DNA of 26,549 nucleotides. Source: a virus. This document shows, one piece after another, positions 16,926 through 26,549 of the stretch. The stretch lies in IMG/VR virus record IMGVR_UViG_3300030110_001747, positions 1-26,549 of that record; one strand, written 5' to 3'. Numbering within the stretch: position 1 is the first letter of the stretch; each line of letters starts with the position of its first letter. The notes under the pieces were generated by a model. The model was not told the DNA's origin. It made no database searches and saw only the letters and a list, made by a program, of their open reading frames with translations. Both the position numbers and the translations under genes were made by a program.

Positions 16926-18497
16926 TTAAAATCCTAGTATTCTAGCTAGTCCTCCTTGATTAAATGGTATACCTATTTTTTCTGCATCTTCTTGTGCATC
17001 TTGAAATGCATCATAAACATTCATTGCAGTTCTAGCATCAATGCCTGCAAGCGCTGGGTTTAACGCGTACAGACCCCCTCTAACTAGTGATCTAACAGCA
17101 GGATTCTCTGATACTGTTTTTACTTTATCTAAAATAGTTTCAGTGCCAGTCATACGTCTTATGTCTACTGGTGTAAAACCTGCGTTAACCATAGCTTGCA
17201 CATCATTTTGTCGATCGCTTCCTCTATCGTCTACAGGACTTGTATCACCGTAACCTCGCTCTGCTCTTTCCTCTGCTCTTTCGGGAGCTCCCATATCGGC
17301 TCCTCCACCTTGAAACCTTACTCTAACTATTCCACCGTCAGCTGGTCCTCCCATCATGTAACCCTGTCTTCCTCGACTTGATTTAGAAGAAAATTGTCCA
17401 CTACCTTCTGATGTTCCTGCTCTATCTGCAGCTGAAGTGCTAAAACCTCCTTGATCATTTGTAAACCCTTGTCTATCAGCACTTTCATATACAACTTGAT
17501 TTTGTGCTCTTGCTCTAGCTGCAGTCTCAGCTTCTCTTGCAACTCTTTCATTAAATGCTGCTTGTTCTTTTGCTCTTCTCTCTATTTTTTTTCCTTGCAG
17601 TTTATTAACATAATCAATTACTTGCAGTCCCTTGAAATTATTTCTTGTTCTTAAAGAAGCTAAAGTTTCAGGATTTAAGTTATAGAGATCCTCTACATTG
17701 TAACCAAAATTTTCGGCTATCTCTTCTATCTCGTCTTGCATACGTTCTTCATAACTAGCGGTGTCACCTAATAAAGTTTGACCACCAGTAAATACACCGA
17801 ACTGATCTCTTTGTGTTCCTTGACCAAAACCAACATTGTCTACTGCATATCTAGATGTATCACTTCTATCTTTATTTCCACCTATTGCAGTGAGTATACC
17901 TGATAAACTAGGTATTTTTGATAAAAGTTCTTGAATGCTGCCCGGAGCTCTAGCTTCTGCATAATTAGACATTGCTCCTCTAGTACCTTTTAAAAAATTT
18001 CTAAAATTTTGACCGGGTATGTTTTGCATTCTAGCATCATACATACCTGCTATGTCCTCTAAAGTTAAACCACCTAAACCTGTTTTACCATCAAATGCTA
18101 TCTGTCCTTTCAAATTAGAATTAAATAGACCTTCGCCTCCAGGAGCTAATTGTCCTTGCATGTAATCTACAGGACCTGCTCTCAAAACTTGCCCTTGTGG
18201 GCCAAATTGAAAACCTAAAGCCGAAGGGTTTACTTCATACATTCCCCCTGGACCGTATTCTGAGGCAGCTGCCATTCCTTTACTATCAAATTTAGGGGTT
18301 ATTCTACTGTAATCAAGATTACCAATGCCACCTCCTCCGCCACTGGTGTTATAAATATTTACAGGAACATCGCTTGTTGGCAAATCTGGTGAATCGTTCT
18401 CGTCCTCGTCATCATAAATTGGAGGGTTTCTTAAATATTCTACTCTAGGCATGTAGAGTAAATCTCTATCTCTGTAATATTGATCAGTAATACTCAT
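16926..18497 (-). CDS. Gly-rich, multi-segment virion protein sharing a motif with the 290-aa protein
   Basis: 523 aa. The N-terminus has YYRDRDLLYMPRVEYLR (7-23), then an acidic Asp/Glu stretch (29-38), a GGGGG linker (54-58), a Gly/Pro-rich central region, a long basic/Ala helix (about 300-335), a Ser/Gly/Arg low-complexity region with YMMGGPADGG (about 385) and a C-terminal helical domain. No enzyme motif is seen. It lies between the tail hub-like gene and small virion genes; TAATG links it to the former. Likely a tail or ejection component; the modular low-complexity build is unusual for a globular protein. Confidence 0.7.
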   Translation of the reverse strand: MSITDQYYRDRDLLYMPRVEYLRNPPIYDDEDENDSPDLPTSDVPVNIYNTSGGGGGIGNLDYSRITPKFDSKGMAAASEYGPGGMYEVNPSALGFQFGPQGQVLRAGPVDYMQGQLAPGGEGLFNSNLKGQIAFDGKTGLGGLTLEDIAGMYDARMQNIPGQNFRNFLKGTRGAMSNYAEARAPGSIQELLSKIPSLSGILTAIGGNKDRSDTSRYAVDNVGFGQGTQRDQFGVFTGGQTLLGDTASYEERMQDEIEEIAENFGYNVEDLYNLNPETLASLRTRNNFKGLQVIDYVNKLQGKKIERRAKEQAAFNERVAREAETAARARAQNQVVYESADRQGFTNDQGGFSTSAADRAGTSEGSGQFSSKSSRGRQGYMMGGPADGGIVRVRFQGGGADMGAPERAEERAERGYGDTSPVDDRGSDRQNDVQAMVNAGFTPVDIRRMTGTETILDKVKTVSENPAVRSLVRGGLYALNPALAGIDARTAMNVYDAFQDAQEDAEKIGIPFNQGGLARILGF

Positions 18498-20677
18498 TAT
18501 CTTCTTCCGTCTGGTTGTATGTCTAACCTAAAAGTACCTAACTTCCAATCCTGTGAGGCACCGGTATTTTTTACGGTCATAGCAATAGATCTTGCACGAA
18601 CGCGAGTATCTATTTTAGTCGTACTTGAGGTTGTTGTAAAGGTTTGTGTTTGAGACGAACTGTTAGGAAAGTCTCTCGTTGTAAAATCTATAGTAGTGGT
18701 TCCAGTCTGAGATATAAAATCAGGTAAAAATCTACGTATTTTCATAATGTATTCACCGTCTCCTCTTATATCGGCCATACCTACAGTCTGCCCTCTTACG
18801 GTTCTTTGAGTAATGTCAAAGTCACCAGAAGTTATAGTCGCAAGTATTGCAGTAGTTGCTCCTCCGGCTAAAACTTGATCGGTCCCTGTTTCGTGTTGAT
18901 AGTATATTGTGCATCCGTCTGCGTTTCCAACAACGTCATAAGATGAATTACTATTAGGATCATATTCTGTTGCATGAGGTTTACCAAAAACAGCTGAGTC
19001 TGCCCAAGCTGCACGATCTAAACTACCCGTCGTCCAGATAGTTCTTTGAGGCCTAGAGTCTAGGTAATTATAAGTAACACATCTATCAACAACATCTGAT
19101 CCATTGGTGCAATAAAACCAGGTTACTTCTCCAAATAAATTATTTAATCCTGCGTTAACAAGATCTCTAGCAGTTGTATTAATATCGTCATAGACAAAAT
19201 CCTCTACTAAACAAGGTAGAGTTTTTAACTGACCGTCGTAACTAAAAAAACCATTCTCTGACATCCAGTATGCAGAACCATCTACTTCAACAGCTGCATT
19301 CTTACCAAGTAGTCCGCAGTTAGTTCCAACCTGTTCAAAGGCAAAAGTAAAAGGTTGGCCTACAAATCTCATGAGAAACAACGCAGTATCTGTCCATACA
19401 TAGATAGCATCCCTACCTCTTATGGCTCCCATAATCATAGAGCCATCGGCCAGTCTTTGTGTACCAGCGGTGTTGTTGGCGGTTACAGTATAAGAATTTG
19501 TTTGATTAATATTTTCTTGATCAGAGAATCTAATAAACATATCGTCTTGTGAATTACTATCTCCAACAATAGTTTCGGTTCCAAAGAATACTAAGTGTCT
19601 ATCCGGAGTGGATACCAAAACATGACGTGATGCTGTTGGTGCATTTGCTATAATTGTTGCTCTATTAGCTGTTGCATTGGTTGGAGAAGAGTCCCATTCA
19701 AAACAAGGTCCATTGTATATTAATGCAATTAGTTTAGTTCCAAAATTATCTAGCACCCAAAGACCTGGGTCTAGCGTTACGTCATCAGAGGATGATTCAC
19801 CCCAAGCAACAAAACTAGAAATGTTGGTAACAGTGGCTCCCGCCGAGTGAGTAGCTGGTGTTGTACCATTAACACCTCTTGCTCCTCCGCTTAAGGTACC
19901 TGTCGCCGTATCGTTATTTGCATACCCAATATCTTCTGAACCTATTCTAATCTCACCAGATGCAGGAAATTGTGTTGAGTCTGCAACGACTACACTTAGA
20001 CTACTCGTGTTAGTTATTGGTGTAGATAACGTAGTGGTAGAGGGACCTGAAACAGTTCCTGACCATTGTCCAGTACCCCAACCAAAACCTCCAACTTGTT
20101 GAGCTGGTCCAACACGATAGTAAAGTTGGGCATCAGCGCTCCCAGTTGTCGTTATGGGTGTACCGGTTTCATTTGTTGCTAAAGTTATTGTGATAGTGGT
20201 TGCCGACGGAGCAGTGGTAACCATAAATTTTGTGTCATTAAAAGTTGCATCATTATATCCAGAACCTGATCCTGTTATACCTGATACGTTTTCAAATCTT
20301 ATAACATCGTCTACTTGTAAATTATGTGATGATGGAAAGGTTACGGTAACAGTGGGCTGTCCAGCTGATGTAGTAAAATTAACTGCGCTTATCGTAGTTC
20401 TAATAGGATGAATGTCATAAAACTGACCTCCTGAATATACATATAATATTCTATTAGTTCCTATAGCTGCGTACTTAATACCAGAATTATTGTCAAAATG
20501 ATGTAATGCTCTTCCTGCACCAGTTAATTTATCGCTACCTAACTGTTGCCAACCACCTATTTTTTCAGGTGAGCCATATCTAAATCTAACATTATCGCCG
20601 TCAAACCACTGGCCTTCTGCTCCAGTTTCTGTAACCTGTTTGTTAAATCCGGGTAAAAATCCTAATTTTTGTAGCAT
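18497..20677 (-). CDS. P22 gp10-like tail hub / packaged-DNA stabilisation protein
   Basis: 726 aa. The N-terminus FLPGFNKQ...TGAEGQWFDGDNVRFRYG..EKIGGWQQ (about 7-45) is characteristic of the marine phage relatives of P22 gp10 (Phage_stabilise). Repeated beta-strand stretches across the length fit a propeller-like tail hub, with Thr/Ser-rich inserted segments (about 95-290). In P22 this protein joins the portal ring to the tail needle and closes the head. Presence here favours a short-tailed phage. A promoter-like sequence lies immediately upstream, and the predicted transcript would begin at or near ATG 20677. Confidence 0.75.
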   Translation of the reverse strand: MLQKLGFLPGFNKQVTETGAEGQWFDGDNVRFRYGSPEKIGGWQQLGSDKLTGAGRALHHFDNNSGIKYAAIGTNRILYVYSGGQFYDIHPIRTTISAVNFTTSAGQPTVTVTFPSSHNLQVDDVIRFENVSGITGSGSGYNDATFNDTKFMVTTAPSATTITITLATNETGTPITTTGSADAQLYYRVGPAQQVGGFGWGTGQWSGTVSGPSTTTLSTPITNTSSLSVVVADSTQFPASGEIRIGSEDIGYANNDTATGTLSGGARGVNGTTPATHSAGATVTNISSFVAWGESSSDDVTLDPGLWVLDNFGTKLIALIYNGPCFEWDSSPTNATANRATIIANAPTASRHVLVSTPDRHLVFFGTETIVGDSNSQDDMFIRFSDQENINQTNSYTVTANNTAGTQRLADGSMIMGAIRGRDAIYVWTDTALFLMRFVGQPFTFAFEQVGTNCGLLGKNAAVEVDGSAYWMSENGFFSYDGQLKTLPCLVEDFVYDDINTTARDLVNAGLNNLFGEVTWFYCTNGSDVVDRCVTYNYLDSRPQRTIWTTGSLDRAAWADSAVFGKPHATEYDPNSNSSYDVVGNADGCTIYYQHETGTDQVLAGGATTAILATITSGDFDITQRTVRGQTVGMADIRGDGEYIMKIRRFLPDFISQTGTTTIDFTTRDFPNSSSQTQTFTTTSSTTKIDTRVRARSIAMTVKNTGASQDWKLGTFRLDIQPDGRR

Positions 20678-20713: not shown

Positions 20714-21295
20714 TTATCTGTTATACGTATACCAGCCAGTAATGATATACTTTTCTTTGTCTTTATTTACTACCCCTCTGTGTGTATGGGTAAAAGCAGT
20801 AGGCCAAATAAGGGTTAGCCCTTTCTCACATGGTGTGGTTATATTTTGATTTCTAAACTCTGTGCCAGCATTTTCTACTGTGTTTAAATAGGTCATAAAA
20901 ACTAACACCCTGTTTGAAACATCTGGATTAGCAGACTCATGGTGCCATATTTTAAACCCACCACCAGGCACATAATATTGAATATTGTAATCTATGTTAA
21001 TATTGAACTTAGAATACCGATCAACATCAGGATATCTTTTAACATATTCTTCTAAACATTTTTGTTGATAATCTCTATATTCTTTAAGAATAGGGTCAAA
21101 ATTATGGGGACTAATATATAAATCTTGAGACTCCTTGACTTCTGTATTTAATCCGTGTTTATTTTTATGGACACATTTACCGGTAACAACCTTATCTTTA
21201 TTGTCATGAAATAATTTTATTAAATTATCGCACACCTTTTCGGGTATGTACCAACCCCCGATAAAAGAGTCTAATGGTATTTTAAATTCTTTCAT
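20714..21295 (-). CDS. 2OG/Fe(II)-dependent oxygenase, prolyl-4-hydroxylase-like (HxE type)
   Basis: 193 aa with a double-stranded beta-helix pattern: IWHHES (116-121; H118-x-E120 as first metal ligands), RVLVFMTYLN (129-138), GTEFRN (144-149), WPTAFTHTHRG (164-174; distal H170 or H172) and a final KYIITGWY (182-189). The family uses 2-oxoglutarate, O2 and Fe(II), usually to hydroxylate proteins or small molecules. Glu instead of the more common Asp is seen in related marine phage proteins. It is the last gene of the oxygenase block; TAA and ATG are adjacent to the sulfotransferase-like gene. There is no Shine-Dalgarno. The substrate is unknown. Confidence 0.85.
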   Translation of the reverse strand: MKEFKIPLDSFIGGWYIPEKVCDNLIKLFHDNKDKVVTGKCVHKNKHGLNTEVKESQDLYISPHNFDPILKEYRDYQQKCLEEYVKRYPDVDRYSKFNINIDYNIQYYVPGGGFKIWHHESANPDVSNRVLVFMTYLNTVENAGTEFRNQNITTPCEKGLTLIWPTAFTHTHRGVVNKDKEKYIITGWYTYNR

Positions 21296-21886
21296 TTAAT
21301 ATCCCAGAACTTTATAGTCTTGATAGTAATAATTTTTAATATAATTAACCTGATTTTTATTTAATTCAATATTAAATTTTATATCAATACCATTAATAAA
21401 ATAATCAGAAGATAATATTTCACTTTTAATCCGTAGGTCAAAAGTATCAGTTAGCCATTTAAAAAAACTATCCTGTAATCCATCTTCAAATCTCCATAAC
21501 TTTGTCTTATGATCTAAAAATTTAATCTGCGGCACAAACCAATTACCTACATTGTTTTTATCAATAAGTGCGTTATTGATAAACTTGTTTAAAGATTCCT
21601 GGTCCCTGAGTATAGATCCAACTTTATCTTTAAATACAGAACTTCTTAATTGACTAACGAACCTAGTAACCGGATCTCTAGTTACTGCAAACTTATTATC
21701 TATAGATCTATTTAAATAATCTTCATAATCAGGAAAAGTTAGATGAGGTATTTCTCTGTATCTATATAATTTACCTAAATCAAAATCTGCATATTCACAC
21801 AAATGTTCTCTAGATAAGGCTTTGTAAATGTAGCGTCCACCCGTCCTTGGAATGTGGGCAAAATAGATGTCTTTATTTATCAACAT
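21296..21886 (-). CDS. Sulfotransferase-like protein (PAPS-dependent family)
   Basis: 196 aa from ATG 21886, which overlaps the upstream stop as TAATG; an upstream TTG at 21901 is less likely. The 5'-phosphosulfate loop is AHIPRTGGRY (10-19, Arg14 where Lys is usual), and the 3'-phosphate motif is VTRDPVTRFVS (68-78). WFVPQIKFLD (116-125), LWRFEDG (130-136) and the end YYQDYKVLGY match the usual order in the Sulfotransfer_2 group. It would move sulfate from PAPS to a sugar, lipid or Tyr hydroxyl. It lies within six oxygenase-like genes. The K-to-R change could weaken or alter catalysis. Confidence 0.8.
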   Translation of the reverse strand: MLINKDIYFAHIPRTGGRYIYKALSREHLCEYADFDLGKLYRYREIPHLTFPDYEDYLNRSIDNKFAVTRDPVTRFVSQLRSSVFKDKVGSILRDQESLNKFINNALIDKNNVGNWFVPQIKFLDHKTKLWRFEDGLQDSFFKWLTDTFDLRIKSEILSSDYFINGIDIKFNIELNKNQVNYIKNYYYQDYKVLGY

Positions 21887-22536
21887 TATATTTTTACCCA
21901 ATGATCTTTTAATTCTATTACCGTGTTATTATTGTACGCCTCCTCAGTTCTAATATCAAAGGCAATTGTAATTCTTTCAAAATCATTCTCTACCTTGTCT
22001 GTCCAGTGTGGTAACCATGACGGAAACAAGGTTACTTTACCTATTTCATTTAAACTTGCAAAAGGTTCTTTGTAATAAGGGCTCTCATAGTATGTATTAG
22101 TTTTTTCTACATTAACACATATGTGACCACTTAAATAATAATTGTTTGATCTAGCGTGTTGGTGTTTTTGTATCTGCTCTCCTTTTCTCATTACATTAAA
22201 CCAACATTGAACATAATAGTTTTTTTCTGGCTCTAGTTTTAATAGTTTTAAAAACCTGTCATGCACATCTTTAATGTATTCTTTTAGAAAAGCAGTCTCT
22301 GTAAAATTTAACAAGTTGTAATGTATAAACCTGCTGGTCAGACTATTACTGCCTAAATTAGTGTAACCATCGATACCTGGAGGATATTTTTTTAATATTT
22401 CTTTTTCTTTATCTAAAAGATACTCAATAAATAAATCACGTTCAGTAAGATATATAGTATCCTCAGCCATGAAATAAGAGTATTGAGGATTAAAAGGATT
22501 TTTTATTTTTTCATTTATAAAATTTATTATCTTCAT
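21886..22536 (-). CDS. 2OG/Fe(II) oxygenase-like protein (2OG-FeII_Oxy_5 type)
   Basis: 216 aa from ATG 22536, chosen because it overlaps the upstream stop as ATGA; an ATG at 22557 would add seven residues. The C-terminal half carries QCWFNVMRKGEQIQKHQHAR (110-129), LSG (135-137), LFPSWLPH (170-177) and RITIAFD (188-194), the pattern of the 2OG-FeII_Oxy_5 group. The first metal motif is H125-x-H127, not HxD, with distal H177 and R188 for 2-oxoglutarate. The N-terminal 100 residues are helical and unrecognised. Part of the coupled block; no Shine-Dalgarno. Confidence 0.75.
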   Translation of the reverse strand: MKIINFINEKIKNPFNPQYSYFMAEDTIYLTERDLFIEYLLDKEKEILKKYPPGIDGYTNLGSNSLTSRFIHYNLLNFTETAFLKEYIKDVHDRFLKLLKLEPEKNYYVQCWFNVMRKGEQIQKHQHARSNNYYLSGHICVNVEKTNTYYESPYYKEPFASLNEIGKVTLFPSWLPHWTDKVENDFERITIAFDIRTEEAYNNNTVIELKDHWVKI

Positions 22537-22868
22537 TTTGGTATAACTATGTTCCATTCTAATTCTTTAAGTAAACTTTCAATTCTTAATACTGTTTTTT
22601 TATTTTCTTTTATGTATTGAATGACTTCTTTGATATCTAGAACCACCCAATTACTTATTTCTTCAATAACTAATTTATCTGCTTTTGTATGTATGCTGGT
22701 TTTTTTAGCGGGCTCTCCTGTTGTGTGTTCAAACATGGGTCTGATATCAAACTTTAAATTTTCGTTTAATCTATCTTTAAGAACACCTGATACATCCCAA
22801 AGTTCTTTTTCTTTTTGTTCATCTGTTGCATGAGTTACTTGATCTAAATACTTTAGAAAAGATTTCAT
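22533..22868 (-). CDS. Small conserved phage protein, unknown function, inside the oxygenase block
   Basis: 111 aa, helical at the N-terminus (MKSFLKYLDQ, then ELWDVSGVLKDRLNENL at 22-38) and C-terminus, with FDIRPMFEHTTG near 40-51 and a Lys-rich middle. No catalytic motif, membrane span or Cys. It overlaps both neighbours by ATGA junctions, which argues that it is a real gene belonging to the block. Similar small proteins occur in marine phages as far as I recall, without function. It could be a regulator or an adaptor for the neighbouring enzymes, but nothing in the sequence proves that. Confidence 0.75.
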   Translation of the reverse strand: MKSFLKYLDQVTHATDEQKEKELWDVSGVLKDRLNENLKFDIRPMFEHTTGEPAKKTSIHTKADKLVIEEISNWVVLDIKEVIQYIKENKKTVLRIESLLKELEWNIVIPK

Positions 22869-23434
22869 TTATTTTTAGCAAGGTTAAAAGATATTGTTAT
22901 CCTTTCCTCTTGAGAAGAGTGAGGTAAAACACTATGTAGTAACCAACTAGGAAAAAGAATTAGGGTATTTGGTTTAGGACCAACTTTCCAACGAGAAGAA
23001 TTGTGAACTGTAGCTTGTTCAAAACAAGGGAAAGACCAATCATATTCCATAGTAGACCAGGCAGGATGAGTAAACATTATCTCTCCTTCTTTTATATTAA
23101 CATAGAATACTCCTGACACTACACAGTTAGGGTGATGATGTTCTACATTATAGTCTTTGTATCCATTAATATTTATCCAAATGTTATCTATTTTTAATGG
23201 AAATTTATATTTAATAATTTTTCTATATTCTTCTGCTAGGTCTAAAATAGCATTAAACAAAGGATTTAAGATTGGGTGTTCTCCCTGTAAACCAGGTGAT
23301 TGCCATCCTCCTACATTACTTATTTTTGCACTAGGTGTATTATTTTTAGTTTCTTTACAATAATCTGCTATTTCTTTTATATTTAATTTTAAATCTGTAA
23401 CCTGGATGGGGACTGGAAAAAACTCATGTATCAT
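22865..23434 (-). CDS. 2OG/Fe(II) oxygenase-like protein (2OG-FeII_Oxy_5 type)
   Basis: 189 aa. Pattern of 2OG-FeII_Oxy_5: an early GGWQS (42-46), IWININGYKDYN (85-96), HHHPN-xx-VSGVFYV (99-112), then IMFTHP, LILFPSWLLH (158-167) and RITISFN (178-184). Ligand candidates are H99-x-H101 and H167; R178 should bind 2-oxoglutarate. It covers nearly the full family length. The ATG overlaps the upstream stop as ATGA. It is a tandem relative of the next oxygenase upstream, sharing the HPNxxVSGVxY core but little else, so an old duplication or separate acquisition. The substrate is unknown. Confidence 0.82.
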   Translation of the reverse strand: MIHEFFPVPIQVTDLKLNIKEIADYCKETKNNTPSAKISNVGGWQSPGLQGEHPILNPLFNAILDLAEEYRKIIKYKFPLKIDNIWININGYKDYNVEHHHPNCVVSGVFYVNIKEGEIMFTHPAWSTMEYDWSFPCFEQATVHNSSRWKVGPKPNTLILFPSWLLHSVLPHSSQEERITISFNLAKNK

Positions 23435-24048
23435 AGCACTAGTTCCGTAAGATCTGAATTGTTACCCATTTTACCTTTAACAAAAACATTAAAAGCTAAA
23501 CTTATTCTTAAATTATTTTCTTTTTTAATTTGAACAGAATGTGTTGTGCTAGATGGAAACAATAAAAGATCTTTTTCAGCTACATTAAACCACCACCTTT
23601 TAGAGTTATATTGCGTAAATTCTTTTGGTGGTATTTGAAACTGATTAGGAATAGTATCATAGAACTCTATCATATCATTTTGTGCATCACATTTTATATA
23701 TAGAACACCGGACACTATGGAGTTTGGGTGAGAATGCATGTGATGAAATTCTTTTTCTCTAGTATAATTTAACCAAGACTGAGTAATGTAAGGTGTAATT
23801 GTTTCTTCTTGAGGCTTAATAATTTTATCAAAATAATCTTTAATTATAGTATCTAAATCATTTTTTAAATTTACAAATATCTTTTCGTTTAAAATATAAT
23901 TATTTGTGGTGCTATAGTTAGAAACATTTTGAACACTTTTGTTTTGGTGTTTGTTTATTTCTTCCATTTCTTCAGAACTAAATTCTCTATTTAATTGAGT
24001 TGCATAAACAGGTACTCCAAACAATCTATGTATTACAGGTTCTATCAT
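23431..24048 (-). CDS. 2OG/Fe(II) oxygenase-like protein (2OG-FeII_Oxy_5 type)
   Basis: 205 aa. The N-terminus VIHRLFGVPVYATQL (5-19) and the core QSWLNYTREKEFHHMH (90-105), SHPNSIVSGVLYI (106-118), LLLFPSSTTHSV (161-172) and RISLAFN (181-187) fit 2OG-FeII_Oxy_5. Ligand candidates are H105-x-H107, H170 and R181. A short Asn/Thr/Leu tail follows. The stop TGA overlaps the next ATG, and its own ATG directly abuts the previous TAA. No Shine-Dalgarno. One of three such proteins in the block. Confidence 0.82.
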   Translation of the reverse strand: MIEPVIHRLFGVPVYATQLNREFSSEEMEEINKHQNKSVQNVSNYSTTNNYILNEKIFVNLKNDLDTIIKDYFDKIIKPQEETITPYITQSWLNYTREKEFHHMHSHPNSIVSGVLYIKCDAQNDMIEFYDTIPNQFQIPPKEFTQYNSKRWWFNVAEKDLLLFPSSTTHSVQIKKENNLRISLAFNVFVKGKMGNNSDLTELVL

Positions 24049-24534
24049 TTAAAAATAATTTATGTTCATTAATATTCGTCTATCTACATCTGTTTGACTA
24101 ATCATTTTATGTTCTGTGGTAGCAGGAAATATAACAATTCTGTTTGCTTTAGTGTTTATTTCTTCTACGCCTTTATCTGTTTTAAATAATGTCTTACCAT
24201 TACAATCGTTAAAATATAAAATAGCGGTCGTACAATCAGGATAAACGTAATCAGTATGCCACTCAGATTCATACGGTTTATCTTTTGCAGTGACTAGGTT
24301 GTTTGTTATTCGAACTAAGGATCTATGATTTAAAGATGGTTGTTGCAAAATAAACTCTACGTCATAAAAGTAATTTGTTCTTGGTCTATTGTGACTGTAA
24401 AAACAATGGTTAAAATAATGACAATCGGTAGCCACCATGTGTGGTTCATAATACCATTCAAAATTTCTATCAAACAATATAGATTTTACTTTATTAAATT
24501 GTTCTAGAGTTAAAAAATTATCTATTACTTTCAT
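24049..24534 (-). CDS. 2OG/Fe(II)-dependent oxygenase with canonical HxD
   Basis: 161 aa from ATG 24534, chosen because it forms TAATG with the upstream stop; ATG 24540 and TTG 24546 are alternatives. The beta-helix core shows EWHTD (H93-x-D95), TTAILYFND (102-110), NRIVIFPATTEHKM (131-144; distal H142) and RRILMNINY (152-160; Arg for 2-oxoglutarate). All ligands are intact. The short N-terminus begins MKVIDNFL, usual for stand-alone phage oxygenases of the prolyl-hydroxylase-like superfamily. It sits mid-block with no ribosome site of its own. Confidence 0.83.
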   Translation of the reverse strand: MKVIDNFLTLEQFNKVKSILFDRNFEWYYEPHMVATDCHYFNHCFYSHNRPRTNYFYDVEFILQQPSLNHRSLVRITNNLVTAKDKPYESEWHTDYVYPDCTTAILYFNDCNGKTLFKTDKGVEEINTKANRIVIFPATTEHKMISQTDVDRRILMNINYF

Positions 24535-25106
24535 TACCATGCCCAACTGACAAAAGAATAACGTTCTCCTTTAGTCACAGGTTCTACCTTATGGGGGTAT
24601 AAAAACACAGAAGGAAACAATAATAGATCTCCGGATTTTATTTTAATTTCATAGTCATCAAACATTATAAACTCTCCACCTTCATAATTATCATTTAGCC
24701 CTCCTAAAATACTTATAGTAGGAATTCCTTTTCTTTCACCGTCAAACACGTCATGTATATGATCAGCATGTTTTGACATAATTTGACCTACTCTATATCT
24801 ATTAAATCTTATTTTAGTAAAACCTTGCCAGCCTGATATTGATGGCCCTTTAGGTTCCTCAACAAAATATCGGTATAAACCTTTCCAAACTAAATCATGT
24901 AGTTCTTTGTCATAAGTTAATGTTGGATACTCATAAGTAACATCTAATTCTTTGTCTCCATTTTTAGAACCATGTGTTCCTGTTTCAACATATCTATATT
25001 CGTGTTTTCTCCATTTAGCTAAACCTAGTTCTTCTACCGTTTTATTTACAATATTTTCTGGCATCCATTTTTTTAAATGCAAAACATAATCTTTTAACTC
25101 TTTCAT
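24534..25106 (-). CDS. 2OG/Fe(II)-dependent oxygenase, PiuC/P4H-like
   Basis: 190 aa. The C-terminal half is a clear P4H-type domain: FNRYRVGQIMSKHAD (101-115; H113-x-D115), IPTISILGGLNDNYEGGEF (128-146), SGDLLLFPS (158-166), YPHKVEPV (170-177; H172) and ERYSFVSW (181-188; R182). The N-terminal 90 residues are charged and may select the substrate. Related enzymes include YbiX/PiuC and phage hydroxylases. It is the second gene of the block, overlapping the upstream stop as ATGA and the next start as TAATG. Confidence 0.88.
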   Translation of the reverse strand: MKELKDYVLHLKKWMPENIVNKTVEELGLAKWRKHEYRYVETGTHGSKNGDKELDVTYEYPTLTYDKELHDLVWKGLYRYFVEEPKGPSISGWQGFTKIRFNRYRVGQIMSKHADHIHDVFDGERKGIPTISILGGLNDNYEGGEFIMFDDYEIKIKSGDLLLFPSVFLYPHKVEPVTKGERYSFVSWAW

Positions 25107-25798
25107 ATCTTATCCATTCTATATTTTTTTAACCTACTAAATGTTTTTATCAAGAAGTTTTCTTTTTTATCAATTGTTTTGTATTTAAATTTAATAGATT
25201 TATCTGTTAAAAATGTAATATAAGCCAGTGGATCTCCTTTTCGTATAATAAAATTTTCTTGTTTGTTAGATATAAGAAAAAAAATATTTAAATTTAATTC
25301 TTGATTTTTTGTTAAAACACCTGGGCATGCTACTAGTTGTGGAAAATGCCAAAATGGGTGACTTAAAAACATGTGTGATGTGCATTTATAATACATATTA
25401 CTTTTAAATCTCAAAACACATCTAACATTATTTCTCATAGACTTGGGTGCATATTTTAAAAATTGTTCTGGTGGGTGTATATCTATAAATTGATTTGCAT
25501 CTACGGGAAAGGAGCCTAAATTAAAATAAAGTTTATTATCTTTAAATCCAAATTGCATATCAAAGGGTGAACAAAAAACAACGGATCTTTTAAATAAATT
25601 AATTATTCCAGCGCAACTTTTTATTGTATTTTTAGACATGTCATAACCGTTAAATTTTTCAGAATATATATTCTTAGGTATGTCTTTAAAATAATTAGGT
25701 AAATTTTTAGGAATGTGTTGAAAACATTCTTTCATTTCATCAACGGTAAATATATTCTTTTCAGAATATATTTCTAATACTTCTTTAAAAAAATTCAT
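25103..25798 (-). CDS. Conserved phage protein of unknown function (DUF6065-like pattern), first gene of the block
   Basis: 231 aa. It has TIKSCAGIINLFKRSVVF (58-75), a SPFDMQF core, HPPEQF (108-113), FLSHPFWHFPQLVACPGVL (144-162) and IIRKGDPLAYITFL (184-197). This order (K-x-C-x-G, SPFD, HPxxQF, IxKGDPLA) recalls a phage family of unknown function found near oxygenase genes, which I remember as DUF6065-like; I am not certain of the label. It is very Lys/Phe/Asn-rich with a basic C-terminus. It begins just after a perfect hairpin and a candidate promoter, so it probably heads the block transcript. Confidence 0.7.
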   Translation of the reverse strand: MNFFKEVLEIYSEKNIFTVDEMKECFQHIPKNLPNYFKDIPKNIYSEKFNGYDMSKNTIKSCAGIINLFKRSVVFCSPFDMQFGFKDNKLYFNLGSFPVDANQFIDIHPPEQFLKYAPKSMRNNVRCVLRFKSNMYYKCTSHMFLSHPFWHFPQLVACPGVLTKNQELNLNIFFLISNKQENFIIRKGDPLAYITFLTDKSIKFKYKTIDKKENFLIKTFSRLKKYRMDKI

Positions 25799-25849: not shown

Positions 25850-26299
25850 TTATTCGTTAATATTATTAGGTGTAGCCGCCACCCAAGATGTAGTGGCTTC
25901 GTCCCATTCTAGTAGAGTTGGGTCTCCTTCTGGTAAGGGTGTAGGTGGTTCCCACATTCCTATCGAAGTATTTAAAGTCCATGAATTACACACTTGTCCA
26001 TTTATAACAGGTCGTGGTGCATAAAAAGCATCAGCACTTTCATCATATGTCCAATTTCTTCCTGGAAAATTTAATCTAAATGCTTTTGATTGATCTTCAG
26101 ATGGAACGGGTCCAACATCTGATTGAGTGTAATGAACACCTTCTCTAGTGTTGTATGAACATTGTTTCCAAACATCGTTTGTACTATACAATTTATTTAA
26201 AAAAGCTTCGCCTTTTGCTTCTGTTGCAGCAGCACCATCAGCCACTCTTTCAACAGTTACTACTTTATTATCAGTATCTATTTTTGCAAAATAAGCCAT
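25850..26299 (-). CDS. Small virion/tail-associated protein (MAYFAKID-type)
   Basis: 149 aa starting MAYFAKIDTDNKVVTVERVAD. Further features are GEAFLNKLYSTNDVWKQCSYN (30-50), NFPGRNWTYDESADAFYAPRP (about 77-97) and repeated Trp-turn segments (SWTLN, GMWEPP, LLEWDE, SWVA). This layout is widespread in marine myo- and podophages, usually near tail fibre genes, and is thought to be structural or fibre-associated. It begins two bases after the Gly-rich fibre gene ends and lacks a Shine-Dalgarno. The repeated Trp motifs suggest a small beta-rich domain. Confidence 0.75.
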   Translation of the reverse strand: MAYFAKIDTDNKVVTVERVADGAAATEAKGEAFLNKLYSTNDVWKQCSYNTREGVHYTQSDVGPVPSEDQSKAFRLNFPGRNWTYDESADAFYAPRPVINGQVCNSWTLNTSIGMWEPPTPLPEGDPTLLEWDEATTSWVAATPNNINE

Positions 26300-26301
26300 A
26301 G

Positions 26302-26549
26302 TTATGCGTCTATACTACCACTTCCAGTAAATTGCAAAATGGTATCAGAACCTTGTGTTGTTACTGTAGGGGATCCTGTAACTCCTCCTAACAATTCATA
26401 ATTAACAGTAGGCATACGAACAACAACTAAACCTGTTCCGCCTGTTCCGCCTTGTCCTCCGTAAGGTGGAGTACTATCTCCTCCTCCAGAGCCACCGCCG
26501 CCTCCTTGGTTTGTTCCACCAGCTTGGCCAGCATTACTTGTTCCAGCAT
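26302..26549 (-). CDS. Gly-rich tail fibre/adhesin protein (C-terminal 81 residues, cut by window edge)
   Basis: The frame enters from the right edge and ends at TAA 26304-26302. It begins with Gly/Asn/Thr-rich sequence including GGGGGSGGGD and GGQGGTGGTG, then GLVVVRMP and a beta-rich end finishing in FTGSGSIDA. A Gly-rich domain followed by a G-(L/V)-V-V-V-R strand is typical of marine phage fibre and adhesin ends. It probably recognises the host surface. Its start lies outside the window. The poly-Gly part may form polyglycine helices as in T4-type adhesins; this is by analogy. Confidence 0.75.
   Translation of the reverse strand, partial: AGTSNAGQAGGTNQGGGGGSGGGDSTPPYGGQGGTGGTGLVVVRMPTVNYELLGGVTGSPTVTTQGSDTILQFTGSGSIDA

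Follow-up and report, generated by a model that had tools for sequence, protein, structure and literature searches.

In an HTVC023P-type ocean phage, the content of an enzyme-rich island of nine genes tracks the fibre side of the locus and not the adjoining hub gene, which is apparently a new finding. The window is the whole stretch of 26,549 nucleotides. The island occupies positions 20714-25798 on the minus strand, where nine tightly packed ORFs (Table 1) are separated by successive gaps of 0, -16, -25, -4, -4, 0, -13 and -4 bases. Six DSBH proteins, one sulfotransferase-like protein and two unknowns (D and I) had been proposed here in an earlier note made from the sequence, and this composition was confirmed by the ORF coordinates, Pfam and PHROG profile searches and conserved motifs. 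The same note placed the island between the fibre and hub genes. The hub border is correct; at the fibre border, however, gene J intervenes. The island genes are packed within the structural gene run. Their GC content is about 28.7%, that of the remainder mostly 32-40%. At the nucleotide level the island region had no match in the phage collection.

Table 1. Features of the island and of its flanks in the window
Feature	Coordinates	Strand	Description and matches
Hub	18497..20677	-	hub / stabilization-type virion protein, 36 bp from island; phrog_3287 2.7e-96
A	20714..21295	-	prolyl-4-hydroxylase-like 2OG oxygenase (predicted); PF13640 (2OG-FeII_Oxy_3) 3.2e-7, above cut-off; phrog_61 1.2e-36
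B	21296..21901	-	sulfotransferase-like (Sulfotransfer_2 / galactose-3-O-sulfotransferase type); phrog_3347 6.5e-12
C	21886..22557	-	2OG-FeII_Oxy_5-type DSBH, HxH...H; PF13759 1.9e-11, 44.7 bits (cut-off 27)
D	22533..22868	-	111 aa, predicted PD-(D/E)xK-like fold; AF2 pLDDT 92
E	22865..23434	-	2OG-FeII_Oxy_5-type DSBH, HxH...H; PF13759 3.2e-21, 76 bits (cut-off 27); TIGR02466 above cut-off
F	23431..24048	-	2OG-FeII_Oxy_5-type DSBH, HxH...H; PF13759 4e-19, 69.3 bits (cut-off 27)
G	24049..24546	-	small HxD...H...R 2OG oxygenase (predicted); phrog_274 2.9e-39; PF13640 23 bits, below cut-off
H	24534..25106	-	PiuC-like 2OG oxygenase (predicted), HxD...H...R; PF13640 (2OG-FeII_Oxy_3) 6.6e-13, above cut-off
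I	25103..25798	-	unknown; phrog_7084 1.3e-12; no Pfam match
J	25850..26299	-	149 aa, between fibre and island; phrog_7759 2.7e-24
Gly-rich fibre	26302..26549	-	C-terminal 81 aa; gene truncated by contig end

Judging from its proteins, the window phage belongs to the HTVC023P-type group, which infects SAR11 bacteria. Its DNA polymerase is 62.8% identical to that of pelagiphage HTVC027P, its hub protein is about 44-48% identical to those of three HTVC023P-type members, and the gene run flanking the hub resembles that of these phages, with the core genes and gene order of the group. HTVC023P-type phages are reported (PMC12753301) to be the most abundant pelagiphages known.

Proteins A, G and H are predicted 2OG-Fe(II) oxygenases, having a DSBH with the HxD/E...H triad and a basic residue for the 2OG carboxylate. 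In A the motif is HxE...H, with E read in the window's own protein and Lys 10 residues past the distal His; in the family alignment both H are conserved in 20/20 sequences and K in 17/20. The corresponding columns are H 47/47, D 45/47, H 47/47 and R 45/47 in the G family, and H 64/64, D 63/64, H 64/64 and R 64/64 in the H family. The latter is found in 43 of the 46 complete islands of relatives, and H matches the solved PiuC structure 9ghl at 1.7e-8. The PHROG label for the family of G is 'DNA endonuclease V'.

The 2OG-FeII_Oxy_5-type proteins C, E and F are not of the HxD type. Instead of the HxD/E...H triad they contain HxH...H, yet all three match PF13759, 'putative 2OG-Fe(II) oxygenase', and the three His are invariant within the families (19/19 for C, 23/23 for E, 63/63 for F). 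The F profile matches the solved structures 2rg4 and 3bvc at about 4e-18. These belong to the same family as E and F, and 2rg4 has HxH where aligned; they are, however, not phage records and were deposited merely as uncharacterised proteins with no assigned function.

The score of B against PF03567 is 18.5 bits, under the curated cut-off of 22, and a sequence search of solved structures with B gave no match. The PAPS motif is present: the 5'-PSB H-I-P-[RK]-T-[GA]-G-R and the 3'-PB residues R75, P77 and S83 are invariant in nine aligned sequences. The supply of PAPS as sulfate donor is uncertain, since SAR11 bacteria lack assimilatory sulfate reduction, as stated for Pelagibacter in passages of PMC5069961. 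A P-loop kinase-like gene adjoining the island in two relatives, L088 and L090, was considered as an APS-kinase and rejected. Among its NCBIfam matches, which all score far below the cut-off, seryl-tRNA kinase ranks first, and therefore no APS-kinase supply of PAPS is claimed.

The modelled structure of D has I-Ssp6803I (2ost) as the best Foldseek match (E 0.04, prob 0.98), and 15 relatives of D occur in islands with varying neighbours. D is possibly a homing-type endonuclease. Protein I is a remote relative, at 16-21% identity, of proteins from four other islands (L060, L080, L045, L068), which look DUF6065-like; its one confirmed relative in the viral scan is in L088. As for a natural-product or RiPP gene cluster, neither the Pfam and PHROGs matches of the window island nor the labelled sister-island genes include a core peptide or scaffold synthase, in a search of all but very short ORFs.

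With the hub protein as the anchor, the loci of relatives were collected. In most of those with a complete island, its position is shared: a fibre-side gene lies on one flank and the hub gene on the other. J marks the island boundary and is present in 33 of the 46 complete islands, which contain 0-8 DSBH genes each in 43 distinct gene orders. The order of the window recurs only in three close relatives. Sister islands also carry FAD halogenases, which match the VirX1 structure 6qgm at 4e-48 (Trp_halogenase family), as well as carbamoyltransferases, a second type of sulfotransferase and methyltransferases. Some phages without Gly-rich fibres retain two DSBH genes at the island site.

Given such variation in order and content, the island is therefore a variable collection of tailoring enzymes rather than a single fixed pathway. 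With so many distinct orders, a fixed biosynthetic pathway was rejected, and a set series of steps in which hydroxylation is followed by sulfation is not supported. As for the possibility that relatives carry random single members without conserved order, the arrays themselves are conserved, but the gene order is not. Nor are six DSBH genes exceptionally dense, considering their range among relatives, and the statement that one or two are common in marine phages is too low, because in ten marine phages of the T4-like kind the number per phage is 7-19.

Linkage to the fibre is seen when the window is compared with L088. The fibre C-terminus and J are both 84% identical at the amino acid level and the island is 87% identical at the nucleotide level over 5.1 kb (about 87% DNA identity for fibre tip and island), whereas the hub is only 60% identical at the amino acid level; the fibre tip and the island were transferred together. 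The fibre homologues in L088 and L089 are complete (315 aa) and are 84% and 83% identical, respectively, over the window's 81 aa. The reverse is seen in L008, whose hub is 86% identical to that of the window, yet whose labelled island genes are only 24-30% identical (amino acids), the island being unrelated.

In partial Mantel tests on 31 loci, island similarity correlated with J given the hub (r=0.25, p=0.008), but showed no correlation with the hub once J was accounted for (r=-0.12, p=0.85). The pair of island genes nearest the hub likewise tracks J (p=0.02). Without L088, L004, L005 and L093 these signals are weaker, at p=0.06 for the whole island and 0.09-0.10 for the hub-proximal genes. 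Islands with J contain more DSBH genes (median 5 vs 2, MWU p=3e-4), and this association persists when the hub tree is taken into account by PGLS (p=1.7e-4 at ML lambda, 0.014 under Brownian motion). Taken by itself, Gly-richness predicts little (PGLS p=0.04-0.08), and on the hub tree the pairs informative for the treekit independent-pairs test were too few. Fibre Pro content did not differ with the presence of the P4H-like gene (p=0.39 and 0.74). Fibres accompanied by a halogenase or sulfotransferase gene showed an excess of Tyr (p=0.012; n=6, one of two tests). For halogenases it was not repeated in a larger set of 42 fibres (p=0.53); for sulfotransferases p was 0.16 in an under-powered set of 5 fibres only.

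A similar tendency was observed in T4-like phages. In the ten marine genomes, which are related, 24 of 119 2OG genes are no more than 5 kb from the main Gly-rich locus, where 6.7 would be expected (p=5e-5), and 95, the majority, lie farther away. The suggested tie of the enzyme array to the fibre is supported by the common site, by island content that tracks the fibre-tip gene instead of the hub, by the joint transfer of fibre and island, and by this enrichment. In P-SSM7 a sulfotransferase and 2OG genes occur in the hub-to-fibre stretch, and in S-T4 a sulfotransferase and a carbamoyltransferase are close to the fibres. The T4-like cyanophages and pelagimyophages (among them P-SSM7, S-T4 and HTVC008M) share with the islands the PF13640 and PF13759 families, the 'ferrochelatase' and 'DNA endonuclease V' labels, halogenases and carbamoyltransferases, some of them near fibres (passages of PMC9146016 and PMC10436341). 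However, their 2OG genes are scattered over genomes of 141-233 kb, whereas those of the window are compressed into one 5-kb block.

The best reading, with slightly less than an even chance of being correct, is that the islands encode late enzymes that chemically diversify the Gly-rich adhesion fibre. The region would then be a swappable tailoring island, whose DSBH enzymes and sulfotransferase-like protein may add small groups (hydroxyl and sulfate; in relatives also halogen, carbamoyl and methyl) to exposed residues, or glycans, of the adjoining fibre. With active enzymes, and with attachment as the trait that selection would act on, the attachment surface of the virion could be altered by swapping of enzymes as well as by change of the fibre sequence, and the nuclease-like gene D may help to move the cassette. 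The shuffled gene sets at one site in relatives suggest, without proof, that these phages chemically decorate their own attachment fibres. More tentatively, at least two unrelated marine phage groups may diversify their fibres by exchangeable oxygenases, halogenases and sulfo-, carbamoyl- and methyltransferases, which would be a second, faster way of changing attachment compared to fibre sequence change. A link to the fibre would offer many genes that are currently classed as metabolic a function open to testing, and would yield halogenases and 3-His DSBH proteins as candidate enzymes for which a protein substrate is proposed.

It is unlikely, though conceivable, that the enzymes act on glycans of the host surface or made by the phage, for instance in a superinfection block or receptor change, and lie near the fibre as both answer the same surface. 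B resembles galactose-3-O-sulfotransferases, sister islands contain carbamoyltransferase domains of the NodU/CmcH type (Pfam), which has sugar specificity, and both HTVC027P and HTVC023P have glycosyltransferase genes downstream of the hub. On the other hand, sister islands encode tryptophan-halogenase-type enzymes, a class acting on aromatics; no glycosyltransferase occurs among the labelled island genes, which are all but a few; and island content tracks the fibre-tip gene. Passive accumulation of mobile genes in an insertion hotspot, with the fibre association due to physical linkage, has the lowest probability. The low GC content, nuclease-like D and shuffled order are consistent with it, but most of the genes encode enzymes of the tailoring type whose catalytic motifs are conserved, and even the two hub-nearest genes go with the fibre side and not with the hub, although less strongly in subsets.

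Publications on these phages assume that such genes are auxiliary metabolic genes (AMGs) directed at small metabolites of the host. This is improbable, as island content and order change very quickly and the genes are positioned beside the fibre. Such a role is suggested by the AMG label and 'ferrochelatase' partners in HTVC023P-type phages (passages of PMC9599517) and by an iron-linked discussion of HTVC027P gp73 (passages of PMC12753301). However, two of the 'putative ferrochelatase' proteins of relatives (K_211, a family of sister islands) have no Pfam domain, hence no chelatase domain, and for the AF2 model of K_211 (pLDDT 92.8) all 50 Foldseek matches listed are 2OG oxygenases, the top one among them being the Pseudomonas putida prolyl-4-hydroxylase bound to EF-Tu. 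By its modelled fold K_211 is itself a 2OG oxygenase; neither a ferrochelatase domain nor a ferrochelatase fold is seen, and the mistaken ferrochelatase story is removed. The EF-Tu complex could point to counter-defence, or to action on nucleic acids or host proteins (AlkB-like repair, translation-factor hydroxylation), as could the DNA repair proposed earlier for cyanophage 2OG genes (passages of PMC9146016) and the matches of PADLOC CRISPR-associated 2OG models to four island proteins. Such roles are slightly more improbable still: the island contains no defence or repair genes and its position follows the fibre. Any protein of this fold could give such generic PADLOC matches, and the island was rejected as a defence system.

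The island has partial parallels in known systems. The gp38 protein of S16-like phages is an adhesin with a polyglycine domain; compared by description, the likeness is that the putative partner is a Gly-rich protein of the tail-fibre tip. To our knowledge, there are no modification enzymes near gp38. VirX1 of cyanophage Syn10 is of the same family as the sister-island halogenases, but this type is absent from the window, and for VirX1 neither a natural substrate nor a gene cluster is listed in the passages of the review PMC8407142. For HTVC023P-type phages, multiple 2OG genes, several non-orthologous ones per genome and in variable order, have already been published together with their ferrochelatase partners, in passages of PMC9599517 that mention neither a fibre link nor a halogenase or sulfotransferase. 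There the 2OG genes are close but non-adjacent, whereas those of the window are adjacent and occupy a fixed site beside the fibre.

The region between the hub gene and J, a 149-aa gene next to the Gly-rich fibre gene, is a real, variable, fibre-linked tailoring island. Nine genes, all on the minus strand, fill positions 20714-25798. The intergene gaps, in order from A to I, are 0, -16, -25, -4, -4, 0, -13 and -4 bases. The GC content is about 28.7% in the island and mostly 32-40% across the rest of the window. All nine genes of the earlier note, including the six encoding double-stranded beta-helix (DSBH) proteins, are present, and the latter are indeed of at least four types.

Genes of the island and its borders
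Gene	Positions	Assignment
Hub	18497-20677	tail hub
A	20714-21295	DSBH, P4H-like
B	21296-21901	sulfotransferase-like
C	21886-22557	DSBH, 2OG-FeII_Oxy_5
D	22533-22868	small PD-(D/E)xK-like protein; confident predicted model; best fold match I-Ssp6803I (E 0.04, prob 0.98)
E	22865-23434	DSBH, 2OG-FeII_Oxy_5
F	23431-24048	DSBH, 2OG-FeII_Oxy_5
G	24049-24546	DSBH, small HxD
H	24534-25106	DSBH, PiuC-like
I	25103-25798	16-21% identity with a set of unknown proteins of other islands
J	25850-26299	149-aa protein
Fibre	26302-26549	C-terminus of Gly-rich fibre

Metal-ligand columns are conserved inside each DSBH family. The pattern HxH...H in C, E and F is a three-His arrangement, and the solved but uncharacterised structure 2rg4 also has HxH where it could be aligned. 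B is sulfotransferase-like: both PAPS-loop motifs are invariant in nine sequences, although the Pfam score is below the cut-off. The predicted model of D is no more than suggestive of a fold like that of the homing endonuclease I-Ssp6803I. D-type proteins occupy varying island positions, and D may mobilise the cassette.

Searches seeded with the hub profile and with B yielded 92 related loci; in their gene maps the array is flanked by J on one side and by the hub gene on the other. The 46 islands judged complete contain from zero to eight DSBH genes, so that six, which the earlier note called dense when combined with a sulfotransferase, is high-normal for the group. The gene order is distinct in 43 of these 46. 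Other contents are tryptophan-halogenase-type FAD enzymes, carbamoyltransferases, Sulfotransfer_3 proteins and methyltransferases. The richest island is that of L096, where about fourteen tailoring-type genes follow one another (L096:4639-13310). They include two Sulfotransfer_3 genes and one Sulfotransfer_2-like gene, as well as one halogenase gene, one methyltransferase gene and one partial carbamoyltransferase gene. A further scan was seeded with the halogenases of sister islands, a seed biased towards the HTVC023P-type lineage; among its 35 loci of at least 8 kb, 33 have at least three DSBH genes and 31 a Gly-rich protein.

Several single genes of the relatives deserve mention. Two Trp_halogenase genes lie side by side at L046:7218-9865, the second matching the family in part only. 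The unk175 family (L079:4506-5009 and similar), found beside J, is DSBH-like, but none of its His residues reaches 80% conservation among the 16 members; it is possibly a pseudoenzyme of the Oxy_5 type. In two close relatives a P-loop kinase-like gene, perhaps of the APS-kinase or seryl-tRNA-kinase type, lies between the island and the hub (L088:7197-7583, L090:908-1294). When L088 was aligned with the window by BLAST, no match covered this gene.

The content of the island follows its fibre side. Between the window and L088, the fibre C-terminus and J are each 84% identical at the amino acid level and the island is 87% identical at the nucleotide level over 5.1 kb, whereas the hub is only 60% identical (aa). 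Conversely, the hub of L008 is 86% identical (aa), but its labelled island genes are just 24-30% identical. Over 31 loci, island similarity tracks J given the hub (r=0.25, p=0.008), whereas no association with the hub given J was observed (r=-0.12, p=0.85). Taken by themselves, the two genes closest to the hub likewise track J (p=0.02). With L088 left out, the association of the whole island with J has p=0.02; with L088, L004, L005 and L093 left out, p=0.06 for the whole island and 0.10 for the hub-proximal half. The median number of DSBH genes is five in loci with J vs two in loci without it (MWU p=3e-4; PGLS p=1.7e-4 at ML lambda and 0.014 under the Brownian model). For an independent-pairs version of this comparison, the tree offered too few pairs that were informative. 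Gly-richness alone is a weaker predictor of the DSBH number (p=0.04-0.08).

In ten T4-like marine phages, the number of DSBH genes per genome is 7-19. Of the 119 DSBH genes in total, 24 are no farther than 5 kb from the main Gly-rich locus, the densest one, chosen by eye once per genome, vs 6.7 expected (circular shift, p=5e-5, which is optimistic because the genomes are related). In P-SSM7 a sulfotransferase gene directly follows gp5, and 2OG genes then extend as far as the fibre genes. Genes for a sulfotransferase and a carbamoyltransferase are also located near the fibres of S-T4.

The leading reading, to which we give slightly less than an even chance, is that the enzymes modify the fibre by some putative chemistry. 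Behind it stand action on a glycan or on a host-derived metabolite, both also named in the earlier note, a role in countering the host, and a passive hotspot. Against the leading reading, Pelagibacter is described in PMC5069961 as lacking assimilatory sulfate reduction, which makes the PAPS supply uncertain. As for the fibre residues themselves, an association of Tyr with the halogenase was not repeated, and no association was seen for Pro composition.

Two families appear to be misannotated. K_211, found in sister islands (L005:10289-10909, L004:12054-12710), is annotated as "putative ferrochelatase" in HTVC023P, 023Pt_psg01, HTVC033P and many cyanophages; about 150 phage records match it (154 by tblastn). 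No ferrochelatase domain was found in the two proteins scanned, HxD...H is invariant (56/56), and the confident model (pLDDT 92.8) has 2OG oxygenases as all 50 Foldseek matches listed, the top one being the P. putida prolyl-4-hydroxylase. Judged by its motif and its predicted fold, K_211 belongs to the 2OG oxygenases and is not a chelatase. PMC9599517 claims 2OG genes with ferrochelatase partners, and this partner claim should be revised. Similarly, the phrog_274 "DNA endonuclease V" proteins, G and the P-SSM7 protein at 22719-23297 (locus L100), contain HxD...H...R; they seem to be 2OG oxygenases, and the label seems wrong.

The DNA polymerase shares 63% identity with that of HTVC027P, 61% with that of 023Pt_psg01 and 55% with that of HTVC023P, and the hub protein is about 44-48% identical to those of the same three phages. 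Judged by these identities, the window is from an HTVC023P-type phage.
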